64,000 bases of DNA, from the NCBI GenBank assembly GCA_947624045.1, contig CANQIL010000001.1, positions 92,978 to 156,977 on the forward strand, given 5' to 3'. The translations under genes were made by a program, and so were the position numbers. The notes under the pieces are model-generated. The model was not told the origin of the DNA and did no database searches. It saw nothing but the letters and a program-made list of their open reading frames with translations. The stretch comes from an uncultured Bacilli bacterium (GTDB taxonomy: Bacteria > Bacillota_I > Bacilli_A > RF39 > UBA660). Of the stretch, positions 4,880 through 15,500 are shown one piece after another; within the stretch, counting starts at the first letter, position 1, and the number at the start of each line of letters is the position of its first letter.

Positions 4880-5662
4880 ATGAATTTTAAAATAGGTGAT
4901 ATGGTTACTAGAATATCTCATCAACACGACATTTTATTTAAAATAATAGAAATAAATGGAAATGTTGCTTTACTTAAAGGCGTAGATTTACGACTTTATG
5001 CCGATAGTGATGTAGATGATTTAGTAATTTCCAAAGAAGAAGAGGCTAAAGAAGATAAAAAAATAATAGAAGCTAATTTGCGAGGATTAGATATGGATAG
5101 AAATAAATATTTTTATCTACCCGGAAAAATACTACACATTGACGGTGATGAAGAATACTTAGAAAGATGTATGAGCTTTTATGAAAGTATGGGCGTTAAA
5201 GCTAATGGGCTATCTTTATCAGAAGTAGAAATGTCTTCGAAGATTTTGGAGTTAATTAAGGAATTTCGACCAGATATTGTTGTTATTACGGGGCATGATG
5301 CTTATTATGCTAAGAAAAATGATATTAAAAATTTAGATAATTATCAAAATACGAATAATTTTATTGCCGCAATTAAAGAAGTTAGAAAATATGAAAAAAG
5401 TCAGGATAAATTAATTGTTGTTGCAGGAGCGTGTCAGTCTAATTACGAAGAATTAATTAAAGCTGGAGCTAACTTTGCTTCAAGTCCTAAAAGAATAAAT
5501 ATTCATGCGTTGGACCCAGCTATTATTGCATCATCTTTAGCTTTGTCTGATAGAAATCAAAGTATTGATTTGATTAGCTTAATTGAAAAAACTAAATATG
5601 GGAGTGATGGAATGGGCGGTTTAATTACTAATGGAACAATGTATGTGGGGTATCCAAGATGA
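4880..5662 (+). CDS. yabG: sporulation-specific peptidase YabG
   Basis: IGDMVTRISHQHDILFKI; PGKILHIDGDEEYLERC; VVITGHDAYY; synteny with rsmA and veg. Confidence 0.92.
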   Translation: MNFKIGDMVTRISHQHDILFKIIEINGNVALLKGVDLRLYADSDVDDLVISKEEEAKEDKKIIEANLRGLDMDRNKYFYLPGKILHIDGDEEYLERCMSFYESMGVKANGLSLSEVEMSSKILELIKEFRPDIVVITGHDAYYAKKNDIKNLDNYQNTNNFIAAIKEVRKYEKSQDKLIVVAGACQSNYEELIKAGANFASSPKRINIHALDPAIIASSLALSDRNQSIDLISLIEKTKYGSDGMGGLITNGTMYVGYPR

Positions 5663-5871
5663 CAATTGGAATGGCAAAACAATTAGTAAGAGATAATAAA
5701 GGAGCAATGCATTCTTTTAGGTTTAGAGGAGCAAGAAATCAGATAGAAGAATTTGAGGGTATGATTACGGATATATATCCCGCTATTTTTATTATAAAGC
5801 TAAATAATCAGAAAATTAGGTCTTTTAGTTATAGCGATGTTTTAATAGATAATTTAAAAATTCTTAATTAA
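5659..5871 (+). CDS. veg: Veg family protein
   Basis: Short ORF, ...SFRFRGARNQIEEFEGMITDIYPAIFII.; follows yabG as in B. subtilis. Confidence 0.85.
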   Translation: MTIGMAKQLVRDNKGAMHSFRFRGARNQIEEFEGMITDIYPAIFIIKLNNQKIRSFSYSDVLIDNLKILN

Positions 5872-5964
5872 TAAAAACTAATAAAAACGTACTTGCAATT
5901 TCTATTTTATTAGTATAAAATGTAATTATAAAGTGCAATTACTTTATGAGGGAGGAATATTCGT

Positions 5965-10748: not shown

Positions 10749-10795
10749 ATAGTTAGGTAAAAATATAATTGGTGGAAAAAAGGTGTTTAAAGATA

Positions 10796-13507
10796 ATGGA
10801 AAAGTACAATAAGTTTATATTAATCTTAATAGCGGTTGTTGTGATAGGTATGAGTATAGGTTATTCTGCTTTAAATAGTAATTTAAGTATTACGGGAGAT
10901 GTAAACTATCGACCTCAAGAAGATGTTAGGGTAACTAAGTTTGTAGCTAAGGATATGCCTAGTGATGTAGTTATAGAATACTCTGACTATTCTAAACATC
11001 AAGTTAAGCTAGGTTATACAAACACCGAAGAACAAGAAACAAGTATTACTTATACAGTTGAAGTAACAAATTATTCTAATGTAAGTATGGGTATTATAGA
11101 TATAATTGGACTTGATGATAATGTAGAGATACAGGAGGGAATTATTGGTACTAAGTTAGTAGGTCCAGGAGAAGATAAGACTTTTATAATTACCTTTAAT
11201 TCTACTACTGCTGAAACGAAAACATATTTATTAACAATTGAATTTGGACAAATATTTGATATTACTTATAGTGGTTTAGGTAATACTGATGATTATATAA
11301 AAGGAGTAATGGAGGGAGAACAACTAAGTCAAGAGTTAGGAAAAGATGCTCAAGTATGTAGTGTTACAATGAGTGGCAGAAATTATACTAATTATACTTT
11401 TTCAAATGGAACTATAATAATTCCAAGTGTAACAGGAGATGTTGTCATAAATGGATATTCACCAGTTACAGAAAGTCCTACTACTCCAAATGCACCAGAA
11501 TTAAATGGTGATATGATACCGGTATATTATGAAGCAACTAGTGAAACAACAGGTGAATGGCGAAAAGCAGATGAAAGTAACTTAGATAATAAATGGTATG
11601 ACTATGCTAGTCAAAAATGGGCCAATGCCGTAACTGTAGTAGCGAATAGTTATGCACCAAAGTCTAATGGTATTGAAGAAGTTAATTTTGTAAATCAAGT
11701 TTATAATTCATATAAAAGTACAAATCAGGGAAAAGATAGTACGACAAGTAATTTAACATTGAAATTCAAGACAGGCTCTACAGGTGGAACATTATCTTTT
11801 GATTATCAAGTTTCAAGTGAACAAAAATATGATAAATTGAATATAAAAGTTAATGGTGAATCTGCTGTTACCGATTTGTCAGGAAATAGTAGTAATAGCT
11901 TTTCTAAAGTTTTGGAGGCAAATGCTAGTTATACTATTGTAGCTGATTATTCTAAGGATAATAGTGGTAATGGAAACAGCGAAGATACCGCAACTATAAG
12001 TAATTTGGTGGTACCAAGTGATTTAGCAGAACCTTTAACAGTAGCTTCAACTGGTAATTATAAATGGGTTCAAATGTATGAATATGAAGTTGCTTCAAGT
12101 TATGAATTAGACGGTGTTTCAGGAACTTATTCATTGAAAAATGTAGAAAGTCACGATTATAGTCTAAATGATATAGGAAAATATATGTGCCGCGACGGTT
12201 CAACGAGTTGTAGTGAATTATATAAAATAACTAATGTAGAAGGAAATACAATTAAAAAAGTAGAAAAATATGGTACAGAATCTGTTGATAGAAATTATTA
12301 TAAAACTGCAGATGTAGATACAGTAATACCAATGTCTGCCATAAACACAATGTGGGTGTGGATACCAAGATATTCATATACAATAAAAAGTGAAGACGGA
12401 ACAAATTATTATGGTAAGAAAACATCTTGTACAATGCCAACCCAAAAATTGCCAGGAGAAATAGATGTAAAATTCATATCGAAAGATGATGAAAGAGAAA
12501 CAGGAAGTGCTCAATACATAGGTGATGAAGTAAGTGGTTGGTATACAAATGAAGCTTTTGATTTTCCTGAAACTGATACAAATACTCCAAAAAAAAGAGG
12601 AGGAATATGGGTTTCAAAATTTGAGCCAACAGGTACAGTTTCAAGTTGTACAAATACAAGTTGTGATGTAAGTAGTGTAACTGTAAAGCCGAATAAAACT
12701 TCAATAAGAAGTAAAACGGTAAGTAATTTTTACTTTATGTCCCGAAGTATGCAAGTAAGTTATGCAGATACTTATGGATTTGATAAAAATAGTGGTGACT
12801 TGCATATGATGAAAAATGATGAATGGGGAGCAGTAGCCTACCTTTCACAAAGTAGATACGGTAAATATGGAAACAGTGAATATACAGGAGCTAATAAAGA
12901 AGTATATATAAATAATGACGGTGGCTATATAACAGGACATAGTGGAGGAGGACCAAGTGCTAGTAGTTCAGCAACAAAATATGCATATAATGATATGACT
13001 AATTTAGGAGATGGTCAAGGTCAAGCAGGACCTGGTGCCTCAACAACAGGAAATATAACAGGAATATACGATATGTCAGGAGGAGCGTATGAGTATGTAA
13101 TGGGCGTATTAGAGTATGATGAACAGGGAGTAGAAGATAATGCTGGAAAAATCGCAACAGGTTCATCTGGATTTAAAGGGTTAAGTAGTAGTGGAGGTGC
13201 AACAGGAAGTTATGGTTTGCCAAATGAAAAATATTATAATAAATATAAAAGTGCTAATCCAACATCAAGCACTTGGTCATCAGCAAAACCGGAATCAGCT
13301 TGTAATAGAGGGGTGTGTTATGGCCACGCTTTATCAGAAACTTCGAGTTGGTACAGTGATTATGCCGGCTTTGTTAACCGCAGTTACCCGTGGTTCCTAC
13401 GTGGTGGCTACTACAGCTATACCACGTCTGCAGGAGTGTTCGGCGTGAACGTCCTCCATGGCAATTCCGCCGGCAACAGCTCTTGTCGCTTGGCTTTCGC
13501 GCCATAG
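10796..13507 (+). CDS. DGR target protein: N-terminal membrane anchor/signal, C-terminal FGE/C-type-lectin-like variable domain
   Basis: N-term TM; NTMWVWIPRYSY; GIYDMSGGAYEYVMG; C-term WFLRGGYYSYTTSAGVFGVN...CRLAFAP matches the downstream template repeat; RBS aaaggtg before ATG 10796 (ORF track start 10769). Confidence 0.9.
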   Translation: MEKYNKFILILIAVVVIGMSIGYSALNSNLSITGDVNYRPQEDVRVTKFVAKDMPSDVVIEYSDYSKHQVKLGYTNTEEQETSITYTVEVTNYSNVSMGIIDIIGLDDNVEIQEGIIGTKLVGPGEDKTFIITFNSTTAETKTYLLTIEFGQIFDITYSGLGNTDDYIKGVMEGEQLSQELGKDAQVCSVTMSGRNYTNYTFSNGTIIIPSVTGDVVINGYSPVTESPTTPNAPELNGDMIPVYYEATSETTGEWRKADESNLDNKWYDYASQKWANAVTVVANSYAPKSNGIEEVNFVNQVYNSYKSTNQGKDSTTSNLTLKFKTGSTGGTLSFDYQVSSEQKYDKLNIKVNGESAVTDLSGNSSNSFSKVLEANASYTIVADYSKDNSGNGNSEDTATISNLVVPSDLAEPLTVASTGNYKWVQMYEYEVASSYELDGVSGTYSLKNVESHDYSLNDIGKYMCRDGSTSCSELYKITNVEGNTIKKVEKYGTESVDRNYYKTADVDTVIPMSAINTMWVWIPRYSYTIKSEDGTNYYGKKTSCTMPTQKLPGEIDVKFISKDDERETGSAQYIGDEVSGWYTNEAFDFPETDTNTPKKRGGIWVSKFEPTGTVSSCTNTSCDVSSVTVKPNKTSIRSKTVSNFYFMSRSMQVSYADTYGFDKNSGDLHMMKNDEWGAVAYLSQSRYGKYGNSEYTGANKEVYINNDGGYITGHSGGGPSASSSATKYAYNDMTNLGDGQGQAGPGASTTGNITGIYDMSGGAYEYVMGVLEYDEQGVEDNAGKIATGSSGFKGLSSSGGATGSYGLPNEKYYNKYKSANPTSSTWSSAKPESACNRGVCYGHALSETSSWYSDYAGFVNRSYPWFLRGGYYSYTTSAGVFGVNVLHGNSAGNSSCRLAFAP
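13361..13502 (+). repeat. DGR variable repeat (VR), 142 bp, in frame in the 3' end of the target gene
   Basis: Aligns without gaps to 13619..13760; 21 differences at TR adenines, 3 at TR cytosines (13375, 13402, 13405). Confidence 0.96.
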
Positions 13508-13539
13508 AGCGTAAGCGATTTACTCTTTTGCTTTGGCCT

Positions 13540-13572
13540 GCGCCCACCTCCTCTTTTTCCAGAGGTGGGCGC
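13540..13572 (+). promoter_or_regulatory. perfect inverted repeat downstream of VR (DGR hairpin/cruciform candidate)
   Basis: gcgcccacctc (13540..13550), 11-nt loop, gaggtgggcgc (13562..13572); no T-run follows. Confidence 0.8.
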
Positions 13573-13618
13573 TAGGGATTTATTCGTAAAAAGTTTCTCT
13601 GTTTCTCGGTTGTTTTGC

Positions 13619-13760
13619 TATGCCAACTTTGTCAACCGCAGTAACCCGTGGTTCAAACGCGGCGGCAACTACAACAATACCACGAATGCAGGAGTGTTCA
13701 ACGTGAACAACAACAATGGCAATTCCAACAGCAACAACTCTTGTCGCTTGGCTTTCGCGC
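13619..13760 (+). repeat. DGR template repeat (TR), 142 bp
   Basis: AAC/AAT-rich near-copy of VR ending ...tcttgtcgcttggctttcgcgc, located between target gene and avd/RT. Confidence 0.96.
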
Positions 13761-14071
13761 TTAGACTATGGCAAACGATTAAAATAATAATTGCTCCTAT
13801 ATTTATATTCAAGGATATTTTGGGGAGTCTTGTCATAGAGAGTAAATTCCTTTTTGCTAAGTCAAATAAACACACAAATAGTCATCACCTAGTTAGTAGG
13901 TAAGCCGAATATTAGATGATGACAAAAAGTAGTACAATTTAAAAATTTGTGACTGCTTTTTTCTTTAATAGACTGTTTAGCAAAAATGAAAAAGAAATTA
14001 TTGAAAACATAGAACTTTAAATATTTATAAAATTCATTAATGGCTAATAGAATTTAAGGAGAAAATTAATA

Positions 14072-14410
14072 ATGAATAATATAACTCAAACTAAAGATAT
14101 TCAAGGAGTAGAAGATTTATTAATATATAAACAGTATTTAGAACTTATATTTTATACTACAAATATTTTAATTAAATTTCCTAAGAATGAGCGTTTTGGA
14201 TTAAATATAGATATTAGAAAAGCAACTTATAATGGATTAGAAGATATTTTGTATGCATATAGAGTCTTTGATAGAAAAGATAAATTAAAATACTTGTATG
14301 AGTTAGATATAAAATTAAAATTTATAAAAGCCTTAATTAGAATAGCATATAGAAAAAAATATATTAGTTCTAAAAATTGCTTAGCTTGGAATAAAAAAAA
14401 TTTAATATAG
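14072..14410 (+). CDS. avd: DGR accessory variability determinant (Avd-like, four-helix bundle)
   Basis: 112 aa helical basic protein (IYKQYLELIFYTTNILIKFPKNERFGL...), directly upstream of the RT and downstream of the TR. Confidence 0.85.
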   Translation: MNNITQTKDIQGVEDLLIYKQYLELIFYTTNILIKFPKNERFGLNIDIRKATYNGLEDILYAYRVFDRKDKLKYLYELDIKLKFIKALIRIAYRKKYISSKNCLAWNKKNLI

Positions 14411-14438: not shown

Positions 14439-15500
14439 GTGCCAAAAAAATTAAAAACTAAATTACAAGATAAATTAAAATTTGAATACTTTTATAATGC
14501 TTATTTAAGAGCTAGAAAACATAAAAAAATAAAAAGAGAAATACTTGAATTTGATATAGATTTGGAAACAAACTTAATAAACTTAATGGAAAAAATAAAA
14601 AATAATACTTATTACGTTGGACAGTATAGGAAATTTATTATATATGAGCCTAAAAGAAGGGAAATTTTATCATTACCATATGTAGATAGAATAGTTCATC
14701 AATGGTATATAGGTGAATTTATAAAGCCATATATAATGAAAAGATTTATTAAAGATACTTATGCTTGTCTTGATAAGAGAGGGATTCATAAAGCTAGTAA
14801 TGTAGTTCAAAAGTATATGCGTATTATGAAGAAGAAATATAATAATTACTATATAATTAAATGTGATATTAGTAAGTATTTTTATTCAATAAATTTAGAT
14901 ATATTATTTGAATTAATGAGTAGTTTTATTGAAGATAAAGAGCTTTTAGAATTTACTAGAAAAATGATTTATGAGAGGGCTACTTCTAATATTGGAATAC
15001 CTATTGGTAATTATACATCTCAATACTTTGCTAATATTTATTTGAATGAATTGGATAAGTTTGTTAAACATAAGTTACATATAAAATATTATGCTAGGTA
15101 TATGGATGATTTTATATTATTAGTAGAAAATAAAATGAAAGCTAAAGAGGTATTTGAAAAAATAAAAGTCTTTTTAGATGAAAGGTTGAATCTTAAATTA
15201 AATCCTAAAAGTAGATATTATTTTAGTAGTATGGGATTAGATTTTTGTGGTTATAGGATATTTGAAACATATAAGCTTATTAGAAAAAGAAGTGTTAGAA
15301 AAATAAGAAAAAAGATTAGTAAATGGAATTATAGGTATGAAAATAATAGTTTAAATTATCATAAAGTGTTAGTTTGTTGGAATTCATTTTTAAATCATGC
15401 TTCGCATGCGAATTGTTTTAATCTATGTAATAGACTTTATGAAAAGATGATGTTTACTAAAGAAATAAATTTGAATAGATATAAAGAAAGATTAAAATAA
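14439..15500 (+). CDS. DGR reverse transcriptase
   Basis: RT motifs: LPYVDRIVHQWY, IIKCDISKYFYSI, GIPIGNYTSQYFANIYLNELD, YARYMDDFILL, GLDFCGYRIF; adjacent TR/VR/Avd. Confidence 0.95.
   Translation: MPKKLKTKLQDKLKFEYFYNAYLRARKHKKIKREILEFDIDLETNLINLMEKIKNNTYYVGQYRKFIIYEPKRREILSLPYVDRIVHQWYIGEFIKPYIMKRFIKDTYACLDKRGIHKASNVVQKYMRIMKKKYNNYYIIKCDISKYFYSINLDILFELMSSFIEDKELLEFTRKMIYERATSNIGIPIGNYTSQYFANIYLNELDKFVKHKLHIKYYARYMDDFILLVENKMKAKEVFEKIKVFLDERLNLKLNPKSRYYFSSMGLDFCGYRIFETYKLIRKRSVRKIRKKISKWNYRYENNSLNYHKVLVCWNSFLNHASHANCFNLCNRLYEKMMFTKEINLNRYKERLK

Follow-up and report, generated by a model that had tools for sequence, protein, structure and literature searches.

The window, which is the whole 64,000-nucleotide stretch analysed, contains a cassette in which a target gene with a variable repeat (VR) at its 3' end is followed by a hairpin, a template repeat (TR), an RNA match and the genes for an accessory protein (Avd) and the reverse transcriptase (RT) of a diversity-generating retroelement (DGR). 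Its features are as follows.

10769..13507, + strand: target gene, 912 aa from TTG, VR at 3' end (ORF; about 60 genomic paralogs)
10814..10873, + strand: hydrophobic N-terminal segment (FILILIAVVVIGMSIGYSAL), presumed membrane anchor (read from the translation)
12344..13504, + strand: conserved C-terminal region, FGE-sulfatase/CLec-like, ending in the VR (FGE-sulfatase matches in paralogs)
13361..13502, + strand: VR (ungapped repeat alignment with TR and mismatch recount)
13540..13572, + strand: hairpin after the VR, 11-bp stem GCGCCCACCTC/GAGGTGGGCGC and T-rich 11-nt loop (compensatory stem changes in other cassettes)
13619..13760, + strand: template repeat TR1 (ungapped repeat alignment with VR; search of the genome for TR-like DNA)
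13782..13923, + strand: RT-14 RNA (RF02921), proposed DGR spacer (Sp) RNA (50.4 bits, gathering cut-off 48.1)
13985..14061, + strand: remnant of a MutS_I-like accessory gene, 3' end only; the C29 cassette has this gene intact (alignment; Pfam MutS_I on the intact C29 ORF)
14072..14410, + strand: avd, accessory protein gene (Pfam bAvd 1.4e-12; NCBIfam Avd 1.4e-14)
14439..15500, + strand: DGR RT, 353 aa, IGNYTSQ and YMDD (RVT_1 5e-18; 8ub7 8e-45; tree)

VR and TR form an ungapped direct repeat of 142 bp with 83% identity, exactly as paired in the initial annotation, and our recount reproduced its 24 mismatches, 21 of them at positions that are A in TR. The changes from TR to VR are nine A>G, seven A>T, five A>C and three C>T. 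Repeats were assigned to a DGR where at least 75% of the TR/VR mismatches fall at TR adenines; the share here is higher (21/24, 87.5%), and the bias is strong given 43 A among the 142 bases of TR (p=1.8e-10, hypergeometric). The adenine changes occupy codon position 1 (12) or position 2 (9) and never position 3. They alter the peptide as previously described, with 14 residues changed, 12 of which are Asn in TR. TR holds 16 AAC/AAT codons, a stop is reachable from a single A-containing codon only (AAA), and about 10^23.7 protein variants are possible.

The YMDD RT claimed before is encoded at 14439-15500. In a tree of this RT with the BPP-1, VP58.5, BalMu-1-like and group II RTs, a check that the initial annotation had proposed, it joined the DGR clade that holds the BPP-1 RT (support 0.94), separate from the group II RTs. 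Its IGNYTSQ motif fits the DGR pattern [IVL]GxxxSQ and stands where group II RTs have PQGGxxSP. The nearest solved structure is 8ub7 (E=8e-45), which we take to be the BPP-1 RT complex, and the next is a group II intron RT (8e-19). Group II intron identity was rejected, as TIGR04416 scored 105 bits against a cut-off of 300 and both motif and tree separate the two classes. The closest named relative of the RT (71%) comes from the uncultured Bacilli MAG Lapin-032 bin60, which is relative genome G006 of the same genus (100% target match). The Avd-like gene is present at 14072-14410, with Pfam bAvd at 48.5 bits (cut-off 40) and the NCBIfam equivalog at 54 bits, under its cut-off of 80; the claim that it directly adjoins TR did not hold, because the RT-14 RNA and the MutS_I-like remnant lie between them. 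The flanking genes, named from their translations, are TilS- and FtsH-like upstream and MscL-, Dus- and LysS-like downstream, which places the cassette in the chromosome. Adenine bias, DGR-clade RT, Avd, the hairpin after the VR and the RT-14 RNA uphold the DGR reading, and support the element as a complete chromosomal DGR, in itself ordinary.

The window hairpin, with a perfect GC-rich stem, starts 32 nt past the target stop codon. Perfect GC-rich stems of 11-13 bp and differing sequence are present in six cassettes (window, C29, C22, G003, G001 and G007), and the stem of L131 (G006) contains one G-T pair. Compensatory pairs replace G-C by A-T between the window and G003, and C-G by T-A between C22 and G001. 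The 13540 hairpin is not read as a terminator, since it lacks a following T-run and its stem covaries from one cassette to the next. Efficient homing of BPP-1 needs a hairpin whose stem sequence is free and whose 4-nt loop, GRNA, is fixed (PMC3240598). The BPP-1 hairpin has a stem of 7-10 bp and this 4-nt GRNA loop, whereas the stems here have 11-13 bp and T-rich loops of 10-12 nt.

The RT-14 RNA begins 21 nt past the TR end in the window. RT-14 was matched at all three cassettes of the genome, with the C22 match below the cut-off, and directly 3' of TR also in L146 (4831-4974; BalMu-1-like contig) and in L118 (1199-1347, -; TR recognised by eye); in L136, RT-9 (RF03080) lies directly 3' of TR (5823-5916). 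Most RT-14 matches in relatives adjoin a DGR-type RT. At L126 7120-7328, the RT-14 RNA follows a mere short TR-like stub (GCCTAGACTACAA), and the template has seemingly been lost from the cassette. The essential spacer RNA of BPP-1, in the corresponding place, recruits RT-Avd (PMC12875486). By analogy, RT-14 and RT-9 may be DGR spacer RNAs, which is the likely function of these Rfam orphan RNAs; our literature search returned no paper pairing a DGR with RT-14.

Sister cassettes carry a small MutS domain I-like ORF, placed between spacer RNA and avd except in L126, where it just precedes avd; the coordinates are L012 3381-3818 (-), L107 715-1116, L131 about 5303-5683 and L126 5302-5661. In the window cassette this ORF is deleted and the 3' remnant is left. 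The small ORFs before avd in the C29, L131 and L126 cassettes match MutS_I (E 2e-10 to 1e-11), a similar small ORF precedes avd in L107, and L118 has a MutS_I-like ORF nearby (5.6e-9). MutS-like ORFs are listed among DGR accessory genes.

The true start of the target gene is likely the ATG at 10796, and two bases separate the VR end from its stop codon. An IGYS/IGYA motif recurs at the N-termini of most target paralogs, and the hydrophobic N-terminus suggests that the family is probably surface-exposed. Weak FGE-sulfatase matches in 26/54 paralogs, none of them in the window's target protein, hint at a possible lectin fold for the family, whose members may bind ligands. A PDB profile search with the target gave a best E of 0.03, and an AlphaFold2 model of the VR region from a two-row alignment was discarded for its pLDDT of 28. 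No relative of the target family turned up when viral contigs were scanned by pattern, which gave no sign of phage-borne targets.

The genome (G000; C labels denote its contigs) is a MAG of 1.654 Mb in 83 contigs, 94% complete with 5.28% contamination. RT and RNA searches gave three cassettes, on C1 (the window), C29 and C22, and TR-like DNA occurs at 20 places. RT identity to the window is 70% for C29 and 52-55% for C22. The C22 RT is frameshifted (C22:9399-10390, +, in L019), which may reflect a recent loss, service in trans or a sequence error; in this cassette with a split RT, TR equals VR at every non-A site. A search with the last 387 aa of the target protein gave 74 matches, parsed to 68 family loci that total 130.5 kb, or 7.9% of the assembly. 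About 61 members bear a VR, and 56 of these are complete ORFs; contigs >30 kb hold 32 of the complete VR-bearing copies, with several together on each of C9, C14, C15 and C5. Truncated targets at the ends of C24, C19, C6 and C30 all stop at ...GIYAISL; this shared end is probably an artefact of assembling a conserved repeat, and the number of targets may exceed the count given such truncated copies. Relatives have 27-29 (G006), 32-34 (G011), 15 (G021) and 8-14 (G001) family matches, and most others 0-5. The copies share a scaffold at the VR ends, PWF.RGG...AGVF...CRL, and vary where TR has Asn codons. In the TR1 group, AAx codons have a mean entropy of 2.82 bits, and codons lacking A at both of the first two positions have 0.79 (p=2e-7). 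A literature search found no paper on a DGR in RF39.

The VRs of this family form a gradient. Nine have 0-6 non-A mismatches to their best TR with 27-56% of A sites changed, and those beyond them form a graded series reaching 48% non-A divergence from the best TR. Overwriting was assessed by comparing third codon positions in the VR with those of identical residues in the body of the same gene. Changed third positions were 1/39 in the VR versus 70/230 in the gene body for C41 (p=4e-5), and 1/39 versus 58/243 for C3 (p=6.5e-4); among about 45 such tests, uncorrected, C41 passes a Bonferroni threshold clearly and C3 narrowly, and results for the other VRs were weaker. The A-site states of both VRs differ from those of the cassette VR. 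Since their third positions are nearly unchanged while 24-30% of those in the gene bodies have changed, the sequences demonstrate that these remote VRs were overwritten in trans from TR2 after the genes had diverged. No perfect GC-rich hairpin was found within 140 bp of C41 or C3, yet both look overwritten.

GC content is high in TR and in fresh VRs (VR GC3 0.60-0.72), inside a window of 30% GC. VR GC3 drops from about 0.7 to 0.1-0.2 as non-A divergence grows (Spearman rho -0.86, p=4e-14), and thus approaches the gene-body level of 0.15-0.2. In 33 decayed VRs, 51% of third positions have changed versus 15% of non-A first and second positions (p=3e-99). This excess at third positions indicates that the scaffold is conserved, and purifying selection on the decayed paralogs is evident from their codons. 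The cassettes and a duplicate at C1:49 kb have a perfect hairpin, and C21 and C16 a decayed one; the GC-rich stem was not seen in most remote target copies. A one-to-one ortholog of any decayed receptor was not found among the relatives' loci sampled, so that long-term keeping of particular specificities is not supported. The receptor expansions look species-specific.

Past homing can be read from copies within the genome and between species. The C1:49 kb locus is a near-identical second copy of this part of the window; the two VRs differ at 26/43 TR-A sites and 2/99 other sites, whereas the sequence that begins at the VR 3' end, runs across hairpin and leader and reaches 81 bp into TR is identical in both. 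At C1:49001-49150 (-), in L009, the 5' part of TR1 is fused to a VR-like 3' half behind the duplicated target and hairpin, and this hybrid may be a product of TR-VR recombination or an assembly chimera. Between species, TR drifts mainly at third positions. When cassettes of this genome were compared with those of G003 (a congener, with the cassette corresponding to that of the window), G007 and G001, VRs tracked their own TR at 17/20, 13/13 and 15/15 non-A TR differences, respectively. In the same order, the VRs differ at 20/40, 16/35 and 14/26 conserved TR-A sites and at 1/75, 0/100 and 0/67 conserved non-A sites. Both the comparison of copies and that of species fit the expectation in the initial annotation that VR alleles differ at TR adenines. 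Since each VR follows its own drifting TR, homing has evidently been active since these lineages separated.

We propose the following model. RT-Avd would copy the TR-Sp transcript and insert random bases wherever the template has adenine; with the help of the 3' hairpin, the resulting cDNA would then take the place of the VR in the neighbouring target gene. This mechanism of copying and replacement is carried over from BPP-1 by analogy. The targets rewritten by the three cassettes would be their own and, in trans, a small number of remote paralogs. Duplication of target genes would at times include the hairpin and a portion of TR, and a copy would drop out of the diversifying pool once its hairpin and its match to TR had decayed. 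Retired copies would persist as fixed receptors and make up the larger part of the about 60 VR-bearing paralogs, and keeping them may bring a benefit. We assign a probability of roughly 85% to the reading of a complete DGR whose cassettes diversify a few live targets, while duplicates drift beyond reach and persist as fixed receptors.

Retirement is one reading of a gradient, and its main rival is that the decayed VRs are served by further cassettes absent from the assembly. That assembly has 94% completeness and breaks off at repeats of this kind, and TR placement varies in relatives (L118, L126), as this rival would have it. However, the RT and RNA searches gave only three cassettes, and the smooth decay of VR GC3 to host composition, with changes at third positions, is expected without rewriting; we consider service by missing cassettes improbable. 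The distance of most paralogs from every current TR would also be explained if the paralogs varied through ordinary gene conversion and point mutation, in the style of antigenic variation, with the RT cassettes as passengers touching their own VR only. The hybrid at C1:49 kb would then be recombination between repeats. Such conversion is difficult to reconcile with the C41 and C3 VRs, which match TR2 at nearly all non-A sites in genes whose bodies are 24-30% off at third positions and whose A-site states were not copied from the cassette VR. The concentration of TR1-group entropy on the AAx codons of TR also argues against it, and we regard this explanation as quite unlikely.

The copy number itself could be inflated through MAG contamination by related strains or by chimeric contigs, as might be suggested by the 5.28% contamination, the split into 83 contigs, the position of several family members at contig ends and one duplicated contig end (C5:63960 and C36:155). 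We give this little credence, because the 32 complete VR-bearing copies on contigs >30 kb occur several per contig, and relatives at 1-5% contamination carry 27-34 copies.

The reading of live and retired targets can be set beside known systems. The window element shares with the DGR of Bordetella phage BPP-1 (mtd-avd-TR-brt) the adenine-biased TR/VR, Avd, YMDD RT, spacer RNA after TR and hairpin after VR; unlike that DGR, it is chromosomal, has the order target-TR-RNA-avd-RT and accompanies many target paralogs. With the Treponema denticola DGR (TvpA family) it has in common a cellular setting, a core cassette with remote targets and, here putatively, FGE/CLec-type C-termini. Treponema denticola has one core cassette, leftover targets in strains and two to seven targets (PMC4891356), in contrast to about 60 VR-bearing paralogs and three cassettes here. 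Several cassettes per genome, trans activity and decayed loci are shared with Thiohalocapsa PB-PSB1, where nine DGR loci and 15 targets are tied to conflict systems (PMC10907252); here, by contrast, one family of presumed membrane-anchored proteins occupies a 1.65-Mb genome. The cyanobacterial DGR target paralogs, of CLec type, are likewise dispersed with residual TR/VR homology, and number 219 genes across a multi-genome set, often fused to signalling domains (PMC7517822). What is new here is the size of the repertoire, compared with open-access DGR papers, and the proposed retirement of targets: those papers report from 2-7 (Treponema) to 15 (PB-PSB1) targets per genome, against about 60 paralogs.

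The position of RT-14 and RT-9 right after template repeats gives these orphan RNAs a likely function. A series of paralogs, with recently rewritten ones at one end and long-decayed ones at the other, would make receptor birth, trans-diversification and retirement readable from one sequence, and VR base composition would serve as a clock for the time since the last homing. Tentatively, and with considerable doubt, we suggest that the DGRs act as a receptor generator and the genome as an archive, in which hypermutated surface lectins would be duplicated out of retrohoming reach and would then stay on as a repertoire, fixed and selected, of dozens of binding specificities. The bacterium may thus generate, and then keep, a receptor repertoire.
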